A stretch of DNA of 51,544 nt from Gammaproteobacteria bacterium (GTDB taxonomy: Bacteria > Pseudomonadota > Gammaproteobacteria > GCA-001735895): assembly GCA_022340305.1 (NCBI GenBank), contig JAJDOF010000073.1, positions 1 to 51,544 on the forward strand, given 5' to 3'. The translations under genes were made by a program, and so were the position numbers. Under the pieces are notes generated by a model, which worked only from the letters and a program-made list of their open reading frames with translations, had not been told where the DNA came from and did not search any database. This document shows, in pieces, positions 16,711 through 29,895 of this stretch. How positions within the stretch are numbered: the stretch's first letter is position 1; each line of letters opens with the position of its first letter.

Positions 16711-17979
16711 TTACGGCGTTATCAACGACAACGACTTGATACAAGTAGCACACAGTGTCGACTTGATCGTCGTAGTCGTGGTTCTGGTTGTCGTTTCGGT
16801 TGAACTCGTTTTGATCGTATTTGCCAGATCCTGATTAAACGTCGGCTCCGATGTCATTACCCGGGTTGGCTCGTAGGTCACGATCCTGACCTCGGGCAAA
16901 GCGGTGCTCGACAGTGTCGTCTCGCCTGCCACCGATGCTGTCGGGGATAGATTGATAACCTGGGTCTTGGGTTCGAGCACGGCGCGAATCGCGGGGTCGG
17001 TCGGCGACGTCGGCACAAAACTCGCTGTCCTGCTGATGTTCGACGGGATTTTAATGATCAGGGCATTGTTTACCGTGACCTGGTCTTCCACAGAACCAAG
17101 CGTGGTTCTCGGGTCGAAAACCTTCACCCCGTCGTAGTTGGTCTTGATCGCCGGATCGAGCCGCGGTGTTTCGACTGCAACCGTTATCTCCGGGCGGGCA
17201 ACTGTCGGGACTGCAGTCGCGGCGGCAGCCGGACTCAATACCGCGATTTTCGCCTGGTCGCTGGCGAACGCGTTATTGAATATTCGTCCGTTACTGCCAC
17301 CGAAGGCGTTGCCGGACCGGCTACTGGTGCCCGCCGAGGCGGCGCCGGAGTTTCCGCTTTTGACGTTGCTGGGGCCAGGAACCCTGAGCCGCATCACGTC
17401 TGGCGAAACATCCAGAATACCGCCGTCCTTGTTGAGTGAATCCACCCTGACGACCTTGCCGACCTGGGCAAGCGCTTCCTGGCCACCGCTTTTAACCTTG
17501 ATGTCGCCATCCAGAACGCGATACAGCGTCGTCGAATCATCCTGGCCAAATACGCCAACCCCTGTCAGTACATCGCCGGACTCCACGTCAAGGTCCACAC
17601 CCGGGGCGGCGACATCGATTGTTCCCAGCTGGTAGGCGAGCCTGGTGACCGTGCGCATGATGCCTTTATCCAGTGTTACGGCGTAATTACCCTCGACCGA
17701 AGGTTTCAGTTCGAGCGCGCTGTTGTCTCTCAGCGCGACCACACCCTGGTTGAAAATCCGCAGTTGCGCCATCCCTTTCTTGCCGGTCAACAACTTCTCT
17801 CCCGGTCGCAGGGCATCACCCTTCTTCATCGGCCGCTGCTTGCCGTCAACACCGATGGCATACACCTCGCCAATGGCGAATTGCAGTCGCGGCATCTCGG
17901 CTGCCGTCGCCGCGGCCGCAAAGCAGACCGCCAGCAATATCGTAATTCCTCTGGCACCAGGGCTAGGTAAATTATTCAT
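16711..17979 (-). CDS. FecR-domain periplasmic or secreted protein
   Basis: 422 aa. A GGAG site upstream supports the ATG at 17979. Signal peptide 1-27 (ILLAVCFAAAATAA). Residues about 32-95 form the FecR domain (LQFAIGEVYAIGVDGKQRPM, QLRIFNQGVVALRDNSALELK), followed by a second beta-helical part to about 180. The C-terminal half is a Pro/Ala/Ser/Thr-rich, low-complexity region without a domain, ending in a Thr run and two cysteines in CATC. Unlike the sigma-regulator FecR, there is no cytoplasmic anti-sigma part, so this is the stand-alone secreted type. It lies 27 nt downstream of the TPR-barrel gene and next to a second FecR gene, forming a three-gene unit. Confidence 0.87.
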   Translation of the reverse strand: MNNLPSPGARGITILLAVCFAAAATAAEMPRLQFAIGEVYAIGVDGKQRPMKKGDALRPGEKLLTGKKGMAQLRIFNQGVVALRDNSALELKPSVEGNYAVTLDKGIMRTVTRLAYQLGTIDVAAPGVDLDVESGDVLTGVGVFGQDDSTTLYRVLDGDIKVKSGGQEALAQVGKVVRVDSLNKDGGILDVSPDVMRLRVPGPSNVKSGNSGAASAGTSSRSGNAFGGSNGRIFNNAFASDQAKIAVLSPAAAATAVPTVARPEITVAVETPRLDPAIKTNYDGVKVFDPRTTLGSVEDQVTVNNALIIKIPSNISRTASFVPTSPTDPAIRAVLEPKTQVINLSPTASVAGETTLSSTALPEVRIVTYEPTRVMTSEPTFNQDLANTIKTSSTETTTRTTTTTIKSTLCATCIKSLSLITP

Positions 17980-18006: not shown

Positions 18007-19329
18007 TTATAAAAAGTCCTTCCTTAGCGATATTGTTATGTCTTCCCTTTCAACATCGTACAGCGACAGGTTTGAACTGGTCTGAGAAATAATAGCAGTC
18101 AACCTGACGGAAACTGTGGTATTGATCCCAAATACTAAACCTCCGACAACTGCAGTCTGTGACTCACTCCTCTTTTTCAAATATAGCGAATTCTCGCTGT
18201 CGTATTCCATGTCGCGGTAGGAAACCAGCAGAAAAGCGCTGTGCAGATCGGTAAATTGTATCTGCCCCGTCAGGCTGAATTCGACATAGTCCATATCACC
18301 GTCATCGCGATCGTTTTTGGCCACCTCCTGGCCGAAACCGATTTCCGCGCTTGCCAGTTTGTCGCCTTTTTCACCGAGTACGCGCAAGTAGCTGATGCTG
18401 ACATTACGGTCATCGTAATCTGATTCCTCATCCTCCTGTTGCTGGAAGCGGTTGCTATTCTGGCTCAGCACCACGCCCAGCTGCGCGCGCTGCGCGAGTG
18501 TATTGCGCCACTCCAGTTCCAGCGTACCACTGTCCTGGTAGTCATCCTGGTCCAACTCCAGGTTACTGACATTGAGACCAGCTCGCACGACCTGGTTGCC
18601 AAAATTACGCTGGTAACCGGTCCTGAGGCCGACAAACAGGTAATTCAGGTCATCGCGATTGCTGAAACCGCGGCTGTTGACATTGCCGCCGAGATACACG
18701 CTGCTGTTCTCGTCAAATCGATGGACCAGGTCTATACCGCCAGCAAGATCGCTGTAGTCGTCGCGTTGCTCGAGGTCGGATTCGGGAATTTCATACAGGT
18801 CACCCAGGACCGGCAGAAATATCGGGTTGGTCGACGTGGCCCCCGTGACGTTCGAATCCGATCCGATGCCGGCCGAAATAAAACCGGTAATTACCGTGGC
18901 AGAAGTTGGTTTCCTGGCGGAAATCGCATCCAGGTACTGGCCGACGGTTTCGCGAATGCCCGCCGTTGGATTCATCGACAACAGCATTTCGAATTCGCGC
19001 CGGGCGCCGTCGAAATCGTTGAGCACATAGTAGGCCCGGGCAAGGTGGAAACGAGCGGTATTATTGTTTGGGTTAACCGCGAGAACACGCTCCAGCGCAA
19101 GGGTCGCAAGACTGATATGGCCCGCTTCCAGCGCGGTGAAACCAAACAGCAGGTCAAAGTTTTCATCGCCGGACATGTCGAACTCGAGCGGTTCGAGTAA
19201 TTCGAACGCCTCGATGTACTTGCCCTCACCGATAAGCTGGTTGGCCCGCTCCAATTCAGAAGCGGCATGCCCGCTTTGGCTGAAAACAAGGGCCCACAGC
19301 AAAAACACAGTACCGATTAACTTGTTCAT
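18007..19329 (-). CDS. TPR-domain outer-membrane beta-barrel protein (Slam/DUF560-like architecture)
   Basis: 440 aa. A GGAGGAAT site immediately upstream fixes the ATG. Signal peptide 1-22. Residues about 25-135 form TPR repeats (YIEAFELLEPLE, LATLALERVLAVNPNNNTARFHLARAYYVL). From about 145 to the end the sequence alternates amphipathic beta-strands and acidic turns, as in a 12-14-stranded outer-membrane barrel starting at GFISAGIGSDSNV. This order, a periplasmic TPR followed by a barrel, is that of Slam/type 11 secretion outer-membrane proteins, though the family match is only architectural. First gene of a unit with two FecR proteins, which are the natural candidates for cargo or partners. 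Confidence 0.83.
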   Translation of the reverse strand: MNKLIGTVFLLWALVFSQSGHAASELERANQLIGEGKYIEAFELLEPLEFDMSGDENFDLLFGFTALEAGHISLATLALERVLAVNPNNNTARFHLARAYYVLNDFDGARREFEMLLSMNPTAGIRETVGQYLDAISARKPTSATVITGFISAGIGSDSNVTGATSTNPIFLPVLGDLYEIPESDLEQRDDYSDLAGGIDLVHRFDENSSVYLGGNVNSRGFSNRDDLNYLFVGLRTGYQRNFGNQVVRAGLNVSNLELDQDDYQDSGTLELEWRNTLAQRAQLGVVLSQNSNRFQQQEDEESDYDDRNVSISYLRVLGEKGDKLASAEIGFGQEVAKNDRDDGDMDYVEFSLTGQIQFTDLHSAFLLVSYRDMEYDSENSLYLKKRSESQTAVVGGLVFGINTTVSVRLTAIISQTSSNLSLYDVEREDITISLRKDFL

Positions 19330-19905: not shown

Positions 19906-20448
19906 TAGTATTTTCGTGGCACCTTTAATGAACTGGTTTTCCCGCTAGTAAACTCCGAATGTTGGCAGAACTCAACCCAATTGGTGGGAAGCCGACACTG
20001 CAAATGCAGGGTTAAGCGGCAATCTTCAATTATTGACCGGGATTAAACCCGCCTGTGGCGTCCGAGTTCAGCGGTACTCACAGGAGACCTGAATCGAGTA
20101 TCAAAATTAAGTCCGCCAGGGCGCGGCAAGTGCAACTAAATGACAACCTGACCACCCTGCCCTCAAAAAACCCAACAGGCCTTACACCGGTTCGCCTACC
20201 AGCGGATGATTGCGCTGCGTGCCCCTGGCGAACAACTTGAAAACTGCATCCGATAATGTTGACGCAGGACATTAATCATCATCCCCGGTCCGATTAATCT
20301 TTACTGACACTTCGTAACCGCAGCGCCTCTGTTATACAGGTCCGGTTGCTGACAGGGGTAGACGGGTATCTGTGGCCATGTCGCCTGGCGAATCTGCTAC
20401 GGTTTGACTGCAATTGCCCGATATGCGAAACATCAAACAGGGGGTAGC
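19906..20448. other. Divergent intergenic region, no gene
   Basis: 543 bp between hspQ (minus) and the beta-CASP gene (plus). Both promoters should be here. No open frame with a ribosome site, no hairpin with a T run and no recognisable repeat were found. Confidence 0.5.
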
Positions 20449-21843
20449 ATGAAAATATCATTCCACGGGGCCGACCAGGGCGTTACCGGTTCCTGTCACC
20501 TGGTCGAATGCGCGGGCAAGCGCATTCTGATCGATTGCGGCTTGTACCAGGGTGGGCGCGAACTGGCCGAGGAGAATGCCGAGCCGATGGGATTTGACCC
20601 GGATTCGATTGATTTCCTGTTGCTGACTCATGCCCACCTGGACCACTGCGGCCGCATACCCCTGCTGGTGAAGCGCGGCTTCAGTGGTGAAATGATTACC
20701 ACCGCGGCGTCGGTCGAACTGGCACGCCTGGTGCTGCTGGATGCGGCCGGCTTGCAGGAAGAGGAGGCCCGCTACCAGGAGCGCCGCGCAAAACGCCGGC
20801 ACGGTAAACGTAAAAAAAACTTTGAACCGCTTTACACCACTCTGGATGCACTCAACTGTTTCGAGTATTTCGGTCGCCGGGCCAGCTACGATCAGCCCAT
20901 GCAACTGGCGCCAGGTATCCGCATAACCTTTCTCGATGCAGGTCATATCCTTGGCTCGGCCAGTATCCTGCTGGAACTGGAACAGGACGGGCGCGCGCAT
21001 CGCCTGCTTTTTTCCGGGGATCTCGGTTACAGTGGCCGGGCTATTCTGCGCGACCCCACTACACCGCCGGCAGTCGATACCGTGGTTATGGAATCGACCT
21101 ACGGTGATCGCCTGCACAAGCAGCTGCAACCGTCAATCGACGAACTTTACGAGGTGATCAACGAAACCGTGGGGCGCGGCGGCAATATCATTATCCCTAC
21201 CTTTGCACTCGAGCGCGCCCAGGAGATTCTCTATTACCTGCGTGAAGGCGCGCAGGCCGGGCTCATAAATCGCTATACTACCGTATTCCTCGATTCGCCC
21301 ATGGCCATCTCTGCGACCGAGATTTTCGAGCGCCACCCGGAATGTTTCGACACGGAAACACTCGATCTGGCAAAAGACGGCAAGGATCCCTTCAAGCTGC
21401 CGGGGCTCAACTTTACGCGCGAGACGGCCGCATCCATGGCGCTCAACCGCATCGAAGGTGGCGCCGTCATCATGGCGGGATCGGGTATGTGTACCGGAGG
21501 CCGGGTGCGCCATCACCTGAAGCACAACTTGTGGAATCGTCGTAACAGCATTGTATTCGTCGGTTTCGCGGCGCAGGGTACGCTCGCCCGGCGCATCGTC
21601 GACGGCGCAAAACGGGTATCGATTTATGGTGATGAAATTGACGTACGCGCCAGTATCCACACCATTGGTGGATTTTCAGCCCATGCCGACCAGTCGGAGC
21701 TGCTGGCCTGGCATGCCAAAACCGGCAATCCAGAAACAACCTTCCTGGTTCACGGCGAGGAGAAAAGCATGCAGGTGCTGGCGCAGAAAATTACCAACAG
21801 CCGCGTGCAAATGCCAGAATTACATCAGCAATACGACCTGTGA
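20449..21843 (+). CDS. Beta-CASP metallo-beta-lactamase-fold ribonuclease-like protein
   Basis: 464 aa from the ATG at 20449, preceded by AGGGGG; the frame extends to 20404 without a site. Metal-binding motifs are complete: an Asp in the first strand, THAHLDH (about residues 60-66), GHILGSAS, and FSGDLG. The beta-CASP insertion and a C-terminal RMMBL segment (IGGFSAHADQSELL, then VHGE) identify the RNA-processing branch related to CPSF-73 and archaeal FttA. Expected activity is zinc-dependent endo/exonuclease action on RNA in the cytoplasm. It is followed by a nucleoside-phosphate phosphorylase and a PRPP synthetase-like gene, suggesting that RNA breakdown feeds those enzymes. Confidence 0.92.
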   Translation: MKISFHGADQGVTGSCHLVECAGKRILIDCGLYQGGRELAEENAEPMGFDPDSIDFLLLTHAHLDHCGRIPLLVKRGFSGEMITTAASVELARLVLLDAAGLQEEEARYQERRAKRRHGKRKKNFEPLYTTLDALNCFEYFGRRASYDQPMQLAPGIRITFLDAGHILGSASILLELEQDGRAHRLLFSGDLGYSGRAILRDPTTPPAVDTVVMESTYGDRLHKQLQPSIDELYEVINETVGRGGNIIIPTFALERAQEILYYLREGAQAGLINRYTTVFLDSPMAISATEIFERHPECFDTETLDLAKDGKDPFKLPGLNFTRETAASMALNRIEGGAVIMAGSGMCTGGRVRHHLKHNLWNRRNSIVFVGFAAQGTLARRIVDGAKRVSIYGDEIDVRASIHTIGGFSAHADQSELLAWHAKTGNPETTFLVHGEEKSMQVLAQKITNSRVQMPELHQQYDL

Positions 21844-21944
21844 TGATTACCGCTGGCGAGCTGTCAAACGAAGCAAAAATCTATGCACCGGAGCGCACGA
21901 CCGGTGTCGTCTTTTAACGATCAGTTACTCTAATAGTTGTAGCC

Positions 21945-23456
21945 ATGGAATCACTAAAACTACGCCGTGTGGCAATCGACACTTACAAGGAGAATGTCGT
22001 TTTTCTACATCGCGACTGCGAGCTTTACCGCAGCGAAGGTTTCCAGGCACTGAACAAGATTGAAATTCATGCCGAAGGCGCCGATGAGCTGGTTATCGCC
22101 GTTCTCAACGTGGTCGACGACGAGAGGATTACCACGCCCGCCGAACTGGGTCTCTCCGAGCAGGTGTTTGCACAACTGGGCAAGGCCGAAGGAACGGCTG
22201 TCTACGTCAACCATGCGACCTCGCCCGAGTCATTAGCATCGGTGCGCGCAAAGATCGCTGGCAGCCACCTGGAATACGATGAAATCCTGGCAATCACCCG
22301 GGATATCGCCGCCAACCGCTATTCTAAAATCGAGATCACCGCTTTCCTGGTAGCCTGCTCGGTGACCGGCCTGGAACGCGAGGAGATCGTGTCGCTGACG
22401 CGCGCCATGGTGGCAACGGGCGAGCGCCTGGACTGGGGCGAGTCGCTGGTAGTCGATAAACACTGTATCGGTGGAATTCCCGGGAATCGCACCAGCCTGT
22501 TGATTACGCCTATCGTCGCCGCGCATGGTCTGTTGATGCCCAAGACCTCGAGCAGGGCGATCACCTCACCGGCCGGTTCAGCAGATACCATGGAAGTGTT
22601 TGCCCGGGTCGAGCTGGGAATAGATCGTTTGCGCGAAATCGTCAAGCACGAGCGCGCCTGCCTGGCCTGGGGGGGTACCGCCAGGCTGGCACCGGTCGAC
22701 GATATCCTGATATCGGTGGAGCGCCCGCTGGGGATGGATTCGCCCGGGCAGATGATCGCGTCGATCCTGTCCAAGAAGGTGGCCGCCGGCGCCAGTCACC
22801 TGCTGATCGACATCCCCGTGGGTCCAACGGCAAAGGTCAGAAAGCGCTCCGAGGCGATGAAACTGCGCAAGCTCTTCGAGTATGCCGGAGACCTGCTCGG
22901 ACTGCACCTGGAGGTCGTGATTAGCGACGGCAAACAACCGATCGGCAGGGGAATCGGGCCGGTGCTGGAGGCCAGGGACGTGATGCTGGTGCTGGAAAAC
23001 GATCCACTGGCACCGATGGACCTGAGGGAGAAATCGCTGCAACTGGCGGGCCGCATCCTCGAGTTCGATGCCGATGTGCGCGGCGGCCAGGGCTATTTTG
23101 TCGCGCGCGATATTCTCGAGTCCGGTCGTGCCCTGGACAAGTTCAAACACATTATCAAAGCCCAGGGTGCGAGCCCGAAATGCGTTGTCAGCGGCAGGCT
23201 TACCGAGGATATCCTCGCCCCCGCCAGTGGTAGAATCGCGGCTATCGACAATTTGCAGATGGCACGCATCGCGCGTCTCGCCGGCGCCCCGATGGACAAG
23301 GGTGCCGGCATCGACCTGTATAAAAAGCTCGGCGAAGAGGTTCGCGCATCCGAACCGATATACCGTATCTATTCTGAATTCAACGCGGATTTCGAATTCG
23401 CCCGACAGGCGGCAGAAATCGACAACGGCTACCGGATAGAGAAAGATGAAACCTGA
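21945..23456 (+). CDS. AMP phosphorylase/thymidine phosphorylase family enzyme
   Basis: 503 aa. The sequence follows the long archaeal-type family (AMP phosphorylase, about 500 aa) rather than DeoA (about 440 aa): an extra N-terminal domain of about 85 residues, then the signature [12 protein letters not shown] near residue 170, and [20 protein letters not shown]. Known archaeal members phosphorolyse AMP, CMP and UMP to the base and ribose-1,5-bisphosphate. Bacterial homologues are usually annotated as thymidine phosphorylase. The PRPP synthetase-like gene overlaps its last 11 nt. Substrate (nucleoside or nucleotide) cannot be decided from sequence alone, but the family match favours nucleoside monophosphates. 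Confidence 0.92.
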
Positions 23457-24351
23457 AACCTGCCTGTTGGGGTTCCCGGACTACGCTACCGAGGCACGAA
23501 AGCTGGCCGGGTTGCTCGGCTTAGCCTACGTACAGGTCGAGATTCACCGATTTCCGGACGGGGAAAGTAAACTGGTGTTACCCACCGCGCTACCAGAGCA
23601 ACTGGTCATCTGCCAGACGCTCGACCGGCCCAACGAAAAACTGGTTGAACTATTGCTCGCTGCAGCGGCCGCTCGGGAAATGGGCGCGAAGTCGATTATT
23701 CTGGTCGCCCCGTACCTCTGCTACATGCGCCAGGATAAGGCGTTTCGACCGGGAGAGGTCGTCAGCCAGAGAATCGTCGGCGCTTTTCTCGCCGATCATT
23801 TCGATGCGGTAATCACCGTGGATGCGCATTTGCATCGCATAAGCCAGCTGTCGCAGGCCATACCGCTGCAGCAAGCGCTAAACCTGAATGCAACAGAGAC
23901 GATGGGCCATTTCTTACGCAACTGTGGCCAGCAGACCCTGCTGGTCGGCCCGGATGCCGAATCCGATCAATGGGTTGCCGCGATCGCAGCACATGCCCGG
24001 CTCGACTATTGCATCGCGCACAAGCATCGTCGGGGTGATAGAGACGTCGACATCAAGCTTCCCGAGTACGATTTTGCCGGACGCGATATTGTCCTCATCG
24101 ATGACGTGGCCAGCACCGGCCATACCCTGGAAAAAGCGGCCACCGCACTGTTGCAGCGCAGCGCCGCCAGCGTCAGTGTGCTGGTCACCCACGCGCTATT
24201 TGTCGACGATGCATGTTGCCGTCTCGAGCGGGCCGGAGTCGACAATATCTGGAGTTGTGATTCGATTCCCCATCCGACTAATCGTCTGTCATTAGGGCCA
24301 CTGTTGGCGGCAGGCCTGCAACAGCTGCTGGAAGACCCAGGGGCGAACTAA
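23446..24351 (+). CDS. Ribose-phosphate pyrophosphokinase (PRPP synthetase) family protein
   Basis: 301 aa. Starts at ATG 23446 with AGAGAAAG upstream, overlapping the previous gene by 11 nt. Conserved elements: FPDGE near the N-terminus, [10 protein letters not shown] (ATP/ribose-5-phosphate region), VTVDAHLH, the [10 protein letters not shown] flexible loop and the PRPP loop [11 protein letters not shown]. It is slightly shorter than the housekeeping Prs (about 315 aa) and diverges in many positions, so it is likely a second, specialised copy. Reaction of the family: ribose-5-phosphate plus ATP gives PRPP plus AMP. Coupling with an AMP-phosphorylase-type gene suggests it handles ribose phosphates released from nucleotides. 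Confidence 0.9.
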
Positions 24352-25410: not shown

Positions 25411-26265
25411 TCAGGATTGATTTGGCTTGATGCTCAATTTGATGACCTGGTCGTTACCCGTGGAAACCGGATCTGACAACTGTTCAAAATCTCCGTCCTG
25501 GCGCATCGCGCCACCCTTGATCGATACCCTGGCCCCGACGATCACGCGCTCGGCACCCGAGATAGTCCGATCCGGTATCATCGAATGGCTGTCGTTGAGC
25601 GTGATCGAAAGCGGTAAATCCCGAACTTGTTTCTGTACTACGGCAAGCGGTGGGCCGGCGCCGTCGACATTGCGCGCAAATACGTAAACGGCAGTCTCGG
25701 GTGGAAACGCGTTTTCCAGATCCGCCGCCAACGACACCTGCAGTTTGATACCGGAAGCATGGTAAGAGTCCGGCGAACTTGTGGCAGCGGCCGTGTCCTT
25801 CACAGAATAGCGGTCGAGGCTGAGTTCGGAAATGGTATCCCCCGGAGATTTGATTTGTCCCATGGCGGAATCAATCCGCGGCAAAGGTTTCCAGACTCCC
25901 GCGTATCCCGCGGCCAGGGCTTGATCGAATGCCTCCCTGGCCTCCGCCTGGCGATTCAGATAATAGTATGATTTCGCCAGTAATATCCAGCCGTCGACAT
26001 CGTCGGCATCGTTCTGCAGGCGCCGCTTGAGGCCTTCCAGCATGTCCGCGACCGAGCCGAGCTCGGCTGCCGCCGGCTGCGCAGCGGGCGCTGACTGCGC
26101 AGCAAGCGAACGCGTTGCTGCAACTGCCGGTTTGACGGCCAGGAAATCGTCCATGTTGTAAGCTGCAGTCGTCGCCGAGTCGCTGCTCCAGTAAAATACG
26201 GCGACGCTGGCACTGCCGACGATCAGCAGCAGCAAAATCAGTCTATTGGGGTGGTGAATTTTCAA
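25411..26265 (-). CDS. CcmI/CycH-like TPR protein (cytochrome c maturation accessory)
   Basis: 284 aa from a TTG at 26265 (GAGAGA upstream). One N-terminal membrane anchor (about 8-26), an Ala-rich linker, a TPR unit (about 88-121, WILLAKSYYYLNRQAEAREAF) and a C-terminal beta-domain (about 168-284) with VSLAADL, TAVYVFARN, PPLAVV, LPLSITLND and GARVSIKG. Those strands are the hallmark of the periplasmic domain of CcmI, which holds apocytochrome c for haem attachment. The usual CcmI membrane N-terminus with two helices is shortened to one. It is encoded 102 nt downstream of the 37-motif cytochrome, so it may be a dedicated chaperone for that protein; this is inference. Confidence 0.85.
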   Translation of the reverse strand: MKIHHPNRLILLLLIVGSASVAVFYWSSDSATTAAYNMDDFLAVKPAVAATRSLAAQSAPAAQPAAAELGSVADMLEGLKRRLQNDADDVDGWILLAKSYYYLNRQAEAREAFDQALAAGYAGVWKPLPRIDSAMGQIKSPGDTISELSLDRYSVKDTAAATSSPDSYHASGIKLQVSLAADLENAFPPETAVYVFARNVDGAGPPLAVVQKQVRDLPLSITLNDSHSMIPDRTISGAERVIVGARVSIKGGAMRQDGDFEQLSDPVSTGNDQVIKLSIKPNQS

Positions 26266-26367: not shown

Positions 26368-29300
26368 CTAGAAACCGCTAGAACTGACCCGGTGGCAACC
26401 GCTGTCGCCACAACCCTTGTTTTGCTCGATCGTTCCATTACTTCCGCCGCGGTGATCGCCCTCTCTGCGAAAATCATTCGCGTGGCAGGCGGCGCAGAAA
26501 GGCGCGTACTGGGGAGCCCTGGAAGGCAGCCACTCAATACCATCGGGACGACTGCCTATCTTGGTCCCGTGGCAGCCATTACAACCCGGATCCCGACGAT
26601 GGGTACCCAGCTTTTGCTTGGTGAACTCACTATTCGAGGCGTGGCTGAAACTGGTCGGCGCCCAACGGTCGGTGGTATGACAGACATCGCACTGGTCGGT
26701 TGTGTTGAGGTGCCCGCTCGACTTGGTAGTCGCCCGACCGCCATCGTCATGACAGCTGAGGCAATTGTTGGCCGTGCTGGAATCGTGTACCCAGGTGCCG
26801 CCGGCGAAGGTAGCAGTCGTATGGCAGAAATAGCAGTCCTGGTCGGCCGGTTCAATATGGGCTGGGACGGCGTCGACCTTGCCCGTTGCCGTGTTGCCGT
26901 CATGACAGTTAACGCAACCGTTGACGATACCGGTATGGTCGAAGGTCGCCGGAAAAAATCCAGACGTGTTGTGGCAGATACCGCAATCCTGGCTGGTGGC
27001 CACATGACCCGCATCTTTGGGCGTGGCGAAGCCAGCGTCATGGCACGACGCACAGTTATCGACGATACCGACATGGTCGAAGGTCGCCGGCTTGAATCCG
27101 GTGGTGACATGGCAGACGCTGCAATCGTCATTGGTCGGTACGTGGAAATTGGTCTTGCCGGTGGCGGTAAAGCCATCGTGGCAGCTTGCGCAATTGCCGA
27201 CTATTCCCTGGTGGTCGAAGCGGGCGTTGGCAAATTCCGTCGTTACGTGACAGACCGAGCAATCCTGCTCAACTCCGTTTACGATCGGGATCGGAATGTG
27301 GGACGGATTTGTCTTGGCGGCGGTACCGGTCGCGATGACACCATCGTGGCAGCTCGCACAATTATCGGTGATACCGGTGTGATCGAACACGGCCGGCTTG
27401 AAGTTGCCGCCGGCGGTGTGGCACACACCGCAATCCTCGGTGGTGACAACGTGGTTGGCTATGGCATTTTTGCCCCTGGCTGGCGGTTGCGCACCGTCAT
27501 GGCAGGAATCGCAGCGCAAGGCCAGTACGTCCGGGGAGCTGTGATCGACTGACGCGTTGGCAAAATCGGTCGTATCATGGCACGACACGCAATCGGCCAC
27601 AGTGGCCGGGTGCGTGCCCGGCGGGGTGTCATTTACCGTAGGTGTCATGGCTCTGGCGCCAACGGTTCCAACTGTCGTAAAGTCGCCATTGTGGCAGGAG
27701 GCACAGTTGCCGCTGATGCCCTCGTGCGCCAACATCGTGGTCGGCGTGAACCCGTTAACATTGTGGCAAACGTCACAATCCTGCGCCGTCGGCACGTGGC
27801 TCGCCGTCTTGGTCAAAGCGGATAATTCGGGCTCGGCCGGGAAGAAACGGCTGACGTGACAGCCCTCACAGCCGCTGGTGATCAAGTCGTGCTGTGCGGG
27901 GAAAAAGGTATTCGACGCGAATCCGCCCGAGTTTTTGTCGACATGGCAATCCACACATTGCTCTACCGCGGGAATGTGATTGGGCGTCTTGTCGAGCGCG
28001 CCGACGGCAACGTAATTGGGGTTGCCATTGTGGCAGGATTCGCAATTGTCGTTGATATCCAGGTGCGCGAAGTTGGTGGCCGGGGCGAACGAGGCGGCTA
28101 CGCTGTGACAGACATTGCAATCCTGGCCGTTCGGCCAACTCGCAGTGACTGGTATTGGCAGATGGGTTGCCGGTTTTCCGTAGAGCGTGTTAGCTGTCGT
28201 CTCGTAGTCGCCATTGTGGCACTGCCCGCAGGTATTTGTGCCGATGCCGGCGTGATCGAAGGTCGCGCCGGTAAAGAAAACTGTGGGATCGGGAGAGACA
28301 GCTGCGGCATCGTAATGACAGTCTTCGCAGTTCTGGTCGATACCCAGATCCGTGGGAAAGTGATTCGGCAACTTGCCCACGCCGATGACGTTATCGTGGC
28401 AATCGGTGCAGGCACCTGTAAGCCCCAGCGCAGGGTTGGCAACCAGGTAAACCGGATCGTGCGTAAACACGCCGGTGGTGAAGGTTCCGGGGGTGTGGCA
28501 AACGCTGCAATCCTCGGCCGTCGGCAAATGATTGGTATGCTTACCCGATGCTTCCCCGGGAAGGCCCGTGTGGCAGCCCGAAGTCGCACAATCAGCGGTG
28601 ATACCCGTATGATCGAAGCCGAATGCCGGTGCAAAACTATCGGTAAAGTGACAGCTGCCGCAATCGGAACTGTTACCCTGATGCGCGAGCACCGCAGTTG
28701 GCGAAACAGCGGTTGCCTTGCCAGGCGCAAGCCCGTTGAAATTGGTACTGCTGTTGTCGTTGTGGCAGGTATCGCAGGACTGCACCAGGGGATCGATACG
28801 ATGGTTGAAAACCCCTCCCAGGCTAAAGGTCACGATGCCGTGGCAGGATTGACAGTCGATAGCCATTACCGGGTGACCTGGAGGTTCCCCTGACGCGCTG
28901 CTTCCCGCGCCATTCCCGTGGCAGGAATCGCAGCGCTTGCCGACAACCAGAGGGCCGTTATGGTCGGGGTAGGCATCGGCAAAATCAGTTGTGTTATGGC
29001 AGTCTACGCAATCGGCGACAGTGTCCGGGTGGGTGCCCGGCGGGTCGTCATTTACGGTGGGTGTCATCCCCAGGGCGGTAGTACCGTTGTGGCAACCGGC
29101 GCAGCCGCTGATAATACCGGTATGATCAAAACTACCGTCCGCTTCCAGTTCAAAAAAAGCGATTGTGTTATGACAGCTGTCGCACTCCGCTTCGGTCGGG
29201 GTATGAAATTCGGATTTGCCTACCGCTGTTACCCCGTCGTGACAGCCGCTGCAGTTACCGAATACTTCCTGGTGATCGACGAAGGGGACGATGGCAAATG

Positions 29301-29895
29301 CCAGGGGTGTGTGGCAGGTCTCGCAAGCGCTGCTGGTGGCGACATGATTCCCCGACTTACCCGGTATCTTGCCGGTTGCCGATGCCAGGTCGAGCTCGTT
29401 GCTGTGACAATTCAGGCAGGTCGACGACAGCCCCTTGTGGTTGACATGGGCCGGATCGGTTGCGTCAGTGACCAGGACCAGCTGGACAGCCCGCTTGCTG
29501 GTCATGCTGCCAGCGTTCACCACCAGTTGAACCCGGTAGGTTCCCTTGACGTCGGCAACGAAACTTGGATTAGTAGAATTGGAGCCCTGCAGCACGGCGT
29601 TGCTGCCGTCGGGTCTGGATGAAAACGCCCACAGGAATCTCAGCGGCTCTGGTGACGTCGTCGACGAGTTATTGTCGGATAGCATGGCTGTTTGACCGAC
29701 CCCGATCTCTAGTATGGGGCCGACCCTGGCGACAATCGATTCGTCCCTGCTTTCAACGAGTGTCGAATTCGGATCGCGTACCGTCGAACCGGTACCGGGA
29801 CTTTCGCCACAGCCTGCGATTGATACGATCAGCATCAATATCGTCAGTATCGCGGTGGGTGTCTGGGACATCCTGGTTGTCAATAAGTCTGGCAT
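26368..29895 (-). CDS. Giant multihaem c-type cytochrome lipoprotein (37 haem-type motifs)
   Basis: 1175 aa from the ATG at 29895. A lipoprotein signal has Cys29 in the lipobox SIAGC. Residues about 55-140 form a PKD/Ig-like domain. From about residue 157 to the C-terminus I count 35 CX2CH motifs plus two CX4CH motifs (CATSGCH, CGDSGCH). The motifs recur in a regular block: a Cys-pair, F-x-P-A-x-FDHTGI, a second Cys-pair, then ATGK and HxPT, so each repeat of roughly 40 residues carries two sites. Additional His residues in FDH and H-x-P are likely second axial ligands. Expected to be a surface-attached electron-conducting wire. Next gene on the strand is CcmI-like. Confidence 0.93.
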   Translation of the reverse strand: MPDLLTTRMSQTPTAILTILMLIVSIAGCGESPGTGSTVRDPNSTLVESRDESIVARVGPILEIGVGQTAMLSDNNSSTTSPEPLRFLWAFSSRPDGSNAVLQGSNSTNPSFVADVKGTYRVQLVVNAGSMTSKRAVQLVLVTDATDPAHVNHKGLSSTCLNCHSNELDLASATGKIPGKSGNHVATSSACETCHTPLAFAIVPFVDHQEVFGNCSGCHDGVTAVGKSEFHTPTEAECDSCHNTIAFFELEADGSFDHTGIISGCAGCHNGTTALGMTPTVNDDPPGTHPDTVADCVDCHNTTDFADAYPDHNGPLVVGKRCDSCHGNGAGSSASGEPPGHPVMAIDCQSCHGIVTFSLGGVFNHRIDPLVQSCDTCHNDNSSTNFNGLAPGKATAVSPTAVLAHQGNSSDCGSCHFTDSFAPAFGFDHTGITADCATSGCHTGLPGEASGKHTNHLPTAEDCSVCHTPGTFTTGVFTHDPVYLVANPALGLTGACTDCHDNVIGVGKLPNHFPTDLGIDQNCEDCHYDAAAVSPDPTVFFTGATFDHAGIGTNTCGQCHNGDYETTANTLYGKPATHLPIPVTASWPNGQDCNVCHSVAASFAPATNFAHLDINDNCESCHNGNPNYVAVGALDKTPNHIPAVEQCVDCHVDKNSGGFASNTFFPAQHDLITSGCEGCHVSRFFPAEPELSALTKTASHVPTAQDCDVCHNVNGFTPTTMLAHEGISGNCASCHNGDFTTVGTVGARAMTPTVNDTPPGTHPATVADCVSCHDTTDFANASVDHSSPDVLALRCDSCHDGAQPPARGKNAIANHVVTTEDCGVCHTAGGNFKPAVFDHTGITDNCASCHDGVIATGTAAKTNPSHIPIPIVNGVEQDCSVCHVTTEFANARFDHQGIVGNCASCHDGFTATGKTNFHVPTNDDCSVCHVTTGFKPATFDHVGIVDNCASCHDAGFATPKDAGHVATSQDCGICHNTSGFFPATFDHTGIVNGCVNCHDGNTATGKVDAVPAHIEPADQDCYFCHTTATFAGGTWVHDSSTANNCLSCHDDGGRATTKSSGHLNTTDQCDVCHTTDRWAPTSFSHASNSEFTKQKLGTHRRDPGCNGCHGTKIGSRPDGIEWLPSRAPQYAPFCAACHANDFRREGDHRGGSNGTIEQNKGCGDSGCHRVSSSGF

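Follow-up and report, generated by a model that had tools for sequence, protein, structure and literature searches.

A 37-site multihaem PKD lipoprotein as candidate distal arm of a PCC3-type conduit in a gammaproteobacterium

Introduction

In the MtrCAB / OmcA system of Shewanella, a surface lipoprotein cytochrome stands outside a porin-cytochrome pair. PCC3 is a porin-cytochrome conduit whose printed hallmark, in the text of He et al. 2017 (PMC5566968), is an inner-membrane protein (IMP) with SGXXG and two WX3HX13H motifs. According to that text, PCC3 cytochromes have 22-39 residues per haem (median 26), and among the outer cytochromes the haem number has a median of 34 and reaches 85; for the outer cytochromes of Gallionellaceae, the text of PMC10734462 gives 10-35 haems. 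PCC3 has been described from genomes, and the text of PMC12442390 calls its function unverified.

The window considered here is the whole stretch of DNA that was analysed, 51,544 nucleotides, from a Gammaproteobacteria bacterium represented by metagenome data (assembly GCA_022340305.1, contig JAJDOF010000073.1). It encodes a large multihaem cytochrome, termed B, which we favour, with some reserve, as the distal arm of a PCC3-type conduit.

Protein B and its predicted location

The gene for B lies on the minus strand (26368..29895, stop codon included) and specifies 1175 residues. The preliminary description had reported 37 haem-type motifs, and its count is exact: 35 CX2CH motifs are joined by CX4CH at residues 436 and 1162, whereas composition-shuffled versions of B held a mean of 0.31 and a maximum of 3 CX2CH motifs (2000 shuffles). 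Its reading of B as a lipoprotein-type cytochrome with a PKD domain also stands. The lipobox IAGC (29809..29820, minus strand) places the lipidated cysteine at residue 29, and the PKD domain, recognised through AlphaFold and Foldseek, spans residues 53-145 (29461..29739, minus strand). Lipoproteins without Asp after the lipobox cysteine are generally sorted to the outer membrane. The cysteine of B is followed by Gly-Glu (IAGC-G-E), the sequence character of an outer-membrane lipoprotein, and the relative L038 has Asp at this +2 position. B is predicted to lie at the cell surface.

AlphaFold, applied to the whole of B with 17 sequences, gave a mean pLDDT of 35.6, with only the PKD domain usable and no haem geometry. 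Block means over that domain were 70-92 (residues 51-140) and 56 (residues 141-150), and its model matched collagenase PKD domains in Foldseek (TMt 0.73-0.84). B is recognised by Pfam Cytochrome_C7 (E 4e-48), and the cytochrome c7 repeat PF14522 scored 161.5, past its curated cut-off of 24.8. A PDB sequence search returned nothing at E 0.001, and a plasmid collection yielded one record, at 25.9% identity.

The haem array

Sites 1-37, placed by motif positions and alignment, occupy residues 160-1168 (26392..29418, minus strand), with a mean site-to-site spacing of 27.8 residues. Over the whole protein there are 31.8 residues per site, a density that had been thought high even for multihaem cytochromes but falls inside the PCC3 range given in the text of PMC5566968; since PCC3 outer cytochromes have 22-39 residues per haem and reach 85 haems, both the density and the haem number of B are ordinary. 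The array had further been described as two-site blocks of about 40 residues. The two-site periodicity is borne out, as blocks resemble each other more at even offsets (mean similarity 0.22-0.27) than at odd ones (0.12-0.15), and so is the proposed origin of the repeats by duplication; the block length is not, as two-site spacings never fall below 46 residues and have a median of 56. No tandem DNA repeats were found in the window gene at a score threshold of 40. Orthology between blocks is blurred in part: in 313 of 459 comparisons the best match was the block of the same index. Exchange inside the array is therefore likely, for example between blocks 5-6 and 21-22, where 149 nt are shared at 75% DNA identity.

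Two sites depart from the common form. Site 11 (28570..28590, minus strand) is CX4CH here and CX2CH in 13 of 15 aligned rows, and the terminal site 37 (26392..26412, minus strand), CX4CH here, is CX3CH or CX6CH in some relatives. Together with site 36 the latter lies in a C-terminal cap (residues 1123-1175; 26371..26529, minus strand), whose profile matches both B and one-piece PCC3 outer cytochromes.

Outside the motifs, B has 39 histidines, 37 of which are kept in at least 11 of 14 orthologue rows and 34 in at least 13 of 14. One conserved extra histidine precedes each of sites 1-34 and 37, two precede site 35 and none precedes site 36; at 23 sites of window B the arrangement takes the form HX6CX2CH. 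This distribution fits bis-histidine ligation throughout B. Haem attachment is predicted from sequence, which would leave room for a repeat protein that arose by chance or has decayed and binds no haem; however, the sites are aligned and the 37 extra histidines conserved over rows only 49-70% identical, and such a reading is scarcely credible.

Number of haem sites among relatives of B

The site-column alignment comprises 15 rows (L007 and L034 being identical in sequence), the distinct rows sharing 49-70% pairwise identity. Twenty-nine of the 37 columns are occupied in every row. Gaps fall at neighbouring sites that two 33-site proteins lack, and at the last site, for which the motif pattern missed three rows (L033, L035 and L042) that read CX6CH; the last site is thus CX4CH in 11 rows, CX3CH in one and CX6CH in three.

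When CX2, CX3, CX4 and CX6 forms are all counted, 19 full-length B proteins have 37 sites in 13 cases, 33 in three, and 71, 77 and 81 in the others. Five further complete proteins from genomes of the class have 37, 33, 33, 31 and 31. Exactly 37 sites therefore occur in 14 of 24 complete B proteins (12 of these 14 stand in the 15-row alignment), the others having 31, 33, 71, 77 or 81. All 24 totals are odd, mostly reflecting pairs plus one terminal odd site, though a 31-site B ends in CX2CH. The 71-site protein is built as 34+37 and the 77-site protein as 40+37, two cases of whole-array doubling in which the second part and sites 1-37 of a relative with 37 sites are collinear, while the 81-site protein reflects expansion of a shorter period. 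The 77-site B shares a genome bin with a 37-site B, and the two are sisters in the tree. Separately, one 37-site B (L037) comes from a bin named Nitrospirota but is nested among gammaproteobacterial sequences, a case of transfer or mis-binning.

Because changes consist of pair loss, array doubling and shorter expansions, and the window gene lacks a tandem DNA repeat, B changes length stepwise and not by slippage. The earlier suggestion that the repeats would let wire length vary is thus right in that length changes, in steps, but it sits poorly with 14 of 24 proteins at 37 sites and with the missing DNA repeat. Judged by these sequences, haem number in B is not freely drifting, and conservation of the pairs-plus-one layout suggests selection on wire length. 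The conserved haem number, together with storage by PCC3 haems as proposed in the text of PMC10734462, might instead point to B as chiefly an electron store, a capacitor, its many haems buffering charge whenever a donor or acceptor is lacking; yet the strict site order fits a wire equally well, and this role seems improbable. Read as a wire in the distal arm, the family offers relatives with 31, 33, 37, 71, 77 and 81 sites, that is, wires of set lengths with mostly the same ends.

PCC3 components and the position of B

The genome that carries B also holds, on contig C104, a b-type-like IMP, a 21-haem cytochrome, a 9-haem cytochrome with the PCC3 N-terminal module (N-module) and a beta-barrel homologue. 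All 13 IMPs read, that of this genome (L064, 13120-13968) and 12 others, contain SGXXG and two WX3HX13H. The cytochrome adjoining the IMP has 21 motifs in 520 residues and matches the PCC3 periplasmic cytochrome median of 21 (its location is predicted). The porin is 48% identical to that of L033, whose model (mean pLDDT 72, pTM 0.52) is a barrel of 22 strands, read by eye from the element list, with a helical N-terminal part; Foldseek matched this model to OprD-type and related porins. A SPOR match fell just under the cut-off in the L033 porin (20.8 against 21) and over it in that of L056.

The 9-haem protein is encoded within the PCC3 cluster, and B stands beside the porin in six relatives, though not in this genome, where B and the PCC3 core are on separate contigs. 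The full order IMP, 21-haem cytochrome, 9-haem cytochrome, porin, B, CcmI-like gene and hisD is found in G020 and G023, where the far side of the IMP is occupied by a divergent Fe-S flavoprotein and an ankyrin-repeat protein; G001, G008 and L038 have the order in part. B lies directly behind the porin in G001, G008, G020, G023 (the L033 locus) and L038, and is convergent to it in L051.

In this genome, hisD follows the porin on C104 within about 70 bases, whereas in G001, G005, G012, G017, G020 and G023 the CcmI-like gene and B adjoin hisD. As the window B is also nested among same-genus B proteins in the tree, sister to that of G012 (96/90), B and its CcmI-like neighbour most likely moved together in the lineage of the window. 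No empty site could be demonstrated in the genus through synteny of the window's flanking genes, because the phosphorylase trio beside B is patchy there. This trio (20404-24351, plus strand) consists of a beta-CASP nuclease, an archaeal-type AMP/thymidine phosphorylase and a ribose-phosphate diphosphokinase in a row; of 12 genomes of the genus that were searched, four matched the phosphorylase strongly and had its two companion genes next to it. Elsewhere in the window, a TPR protein (18007-19329, minus strand) just passes the cut-off for SlipAM, the surface lipoprotein assembly modifier (23 against 22 bits), and may export surface lipoproteins; next to it, a protein at 16711-17979 gave a LapA-retention match under the cut-off (32.8 against 50).

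Co-occurrence of B and the PCC3 IMP

Among 57 genomes, this one included, B is present in 12, the IMP in 14 and both in 10 (Fisher p 1.3e-6, related genomes being treated as independent). The cut-offs were set after the scores had been seen, at >=190 bits for B (G004 198, G033 187) and E <1e-15 for the IMP, and G035 is counted among the ten although its IMP, lying where a contig ends, is partial. B occurs without the IMP in G001, which is 81% complete, and in G004. The IMP occurs without B in G033, G036, G043 and G052, the first two and the last of which have a capped one-piece cytochrome; that of G043 is readable only in part. Across 369 genomes of the class, the IMP is found in 48 and a match to the B N-terminus in 9, of which 7 have the IMP (p 1.2e-5, again with related genomes as independent); the matches in G104 and G279 lack haem motifs, and G279, with a haem-less PKD protein, is among the seven.

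The separation of B from PCC3 in this genome, and the fact that only three of the 22 named B loci, several of them cut by contig ends, show the porin next to it, weigh against a distal arm. They suit instead a free-standing surface cytochrome, serving several conduits or neighbour cells with no fixed bond to PCC3, where nearness would reflect shared regulation only; a lipid anchor could hold B without a porin. However, the PCC3 IMP is present in 10 of the 12 B-bearing genomes, and of the two that lack it, G001 has the porin beside B and G004 just a fragment with a stop. The cap pattern below also ties B to cap loss in the PCC3 cytochrome, and we regard a free-standing B as rather unlikely, though a serious competitor to the distal arm.

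A seemingly divided outer arm

The one-piece PCC3 outer cytochromes L070, L052 and L056 (44, 51 and 52 sites) have both the N-module and the C-cap. In this genus, the 9-haem protein has the N-module and no C-cap, while B has the PKD domain and C-cap and no N-module. For a tally of these modules, profiles were extended, and cytochromes cut at the 3ʹ end were set aside before the count, as were those in which no N-module was recognised; the list of B-bearing genomes was drawn up by hand and omits G004, where B is a fragment interrupted by a stop, and G104 and G279, whose PKD proteins have no haem motifs. Counted over genomes that have a complete N-module cytochrome, 10 of the 13 bearing B had a capless one, against 3 of the 22 that lack B (p 3e-4), a value that is too good, because seven of the ten capless genomes belong to one genus and related genomes are treated as independent. 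The named loci L038 and L051 also combine B with a capless cytochrome.

Individual cases qualify the tally. The reading frame of G017, one of the ten, looks broken near its end, and two of the three B-less exceptions (G122 and G278) by eye resemble diverged caps. The capless cytochromes of G141 (L154) and G356 (L153) have a PKD-like C-terminal stretch in place of the usual cap, in genomes that also hold B with an N-terminal PKD; a second, capped cytochrome is present in G141 and G339. Against a distal arm, G027, G073 and G076 have B with capped cytochromes only, that of G027 having 14 sites. The array of B is not collinear with those of three one-piece PCC3 cytochromes, though the ends match. 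A PCC3 cytochrome of L101 (7353-9098, plus strand) ends in a haem-like CX9CH motif.

In this genus, the one-piece PCC3 outer cytochrome looks to be divided between the 9-haem protein and B. A fuller picture, offered tentatively, has a split PCC3 arm with an N-module barrel base and a lipid-anchored C-cap arm; the arm would be a fixed 36+1-haem module, lengthened mainly by whole-module copying, and its maturation would fall to a CcmI paralogue of its own that reads the C-terminal cap and the CX3/CX4/CX6CH site there. No description of a split arm, 36+1 layout, array doubling or B-linked CcmI paralogue was found in the text of PMC5566968, PMC10734462, PMC12442390 or PMC8788666, and literature searches pairing the PKD domain with multiheme EET, or Thiodiazotropha with multiheme, returned nothing. 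If the outer arm does have two parts, base and arm could be expressed separately and would be natural test pieces.

The CcmI-like neighbour

Downstream of B lies a gene for a CcmI-like (CycH-type) maturation protein of 284 residues (25411..26265, minus strand; Ig_CycH 1.4e-29). Contig C74 of this genome encodes a canonical 537-residue CcmI as well as CcmF; the gene next to B is therefore a second copy, and c-type maturation genes, whose presence the preliminary description had proposed as a check, are in the genome. A CcmI-like gene adjoins B in all nine same-genus genomes with a readable flank. It is downstream in G000, G001, G005, G012, G017, G020 and G023; in G024 and G027 it is upstream, divergent and short, with Pfam TPR and no Ig_CycH part. 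Within the set of 22 named loci carrying B, only L033, L034 and L050 have such a neighbour; these are contigs of G023, G027 and G001.

As set out in the text of PMC3884852, CcmI and NrfG each bind their apocytochrome at its C-terminal part; NrfG, a CcmI-type protein, binds the NrfA C-terminus and is required for its CWSCK site. By analogy, the CcmI-like neighbour would act as a dedicated chaperone for the B apocytochrome, as NrfG does for NrfA, and could provide a handle on the haem filling of very large cytochromes.

Proposed role

The case for B as distal arm draws on its lipobox, PKD domain, 37 motifs with 37 conserved histidines, the shared cap and the PCC3 parts on C104, and on the adjoining porin in six relatives, co-occurrence with the IMP, the hand-over of the cap and the constant CcmI-like neighbour. 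In this role, electrons would pass between the quinone pool, the IMP, the 21-haem cytochrome, the barrel-held 9-haem protein and B, and B would exchange them with a solid, a partner cell or other cytochromes.

Electrons may move through the conduit outward or inward. Sideroxydans ES-1 showed lower PCC3 gene levels with Fe(II) than with thiosulfate (text of PMC8788666), and the text of PMC12545173 describes sulfur oxidation coupled to iron oxide reduction, with gammaproteobacterial enzymes among its examples. This genome holds RuBisCO and dsrA, for which reason the host is likely a sulfur-oxidising autotroph.

Comparison with known systems

The OmcA/MtrC decahaem model TIGR03507 (80.7, curated cut-off 209.3) and the DmsE decahaem model TIGR03508 (94, cut-off 192.2) both scored B under their cut-offs. 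The c7-type 'nanowire' triheme repeat TIGR04257 resembles B in its closely spaced sites (50.4 against a cut-off of 40); however, that model covers a triheme domain only, whereas B is far longer, with a lipobox, PKD domain and C-cap. As a lipoprotein cytochrome of predicted surface location, B is like those of MtrCAB / OmcA, but it has 37 sites in place of ten haems.

A PCC3-type outer cytochrome in genome G252 (L171, 522-12734, plus strand) has 4071 residues and 133 CX2CH motifs, above the largest counts of 85 in the text of PMC5566968 and 86, the top of the dataset, in that of PMC9012536; no wider record is claimed.

Here as in the NrfG/CcmI systems, a TPR protein of CcmI type is found next to a cytochrome that has a non-canonical motif (CX4CH in B, CWSCK in NrfA); the present case differs in that the dedicated role of the B neighbour is putative and the CcmF match of this genome is on another contig. 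The likeness to PCC3 lies in the IMP with SGXXG and two WX3HX13H, the 21-haem cytochrome, the barrel protein and a many-haem outer cytochrome. Unlike PCC3, the outer part here seems to consist of a 9-haem N-module protein and a 37-haem PKD lipoprotein, with an extra CcmI-like gene and, in this genome, B encoded apart.
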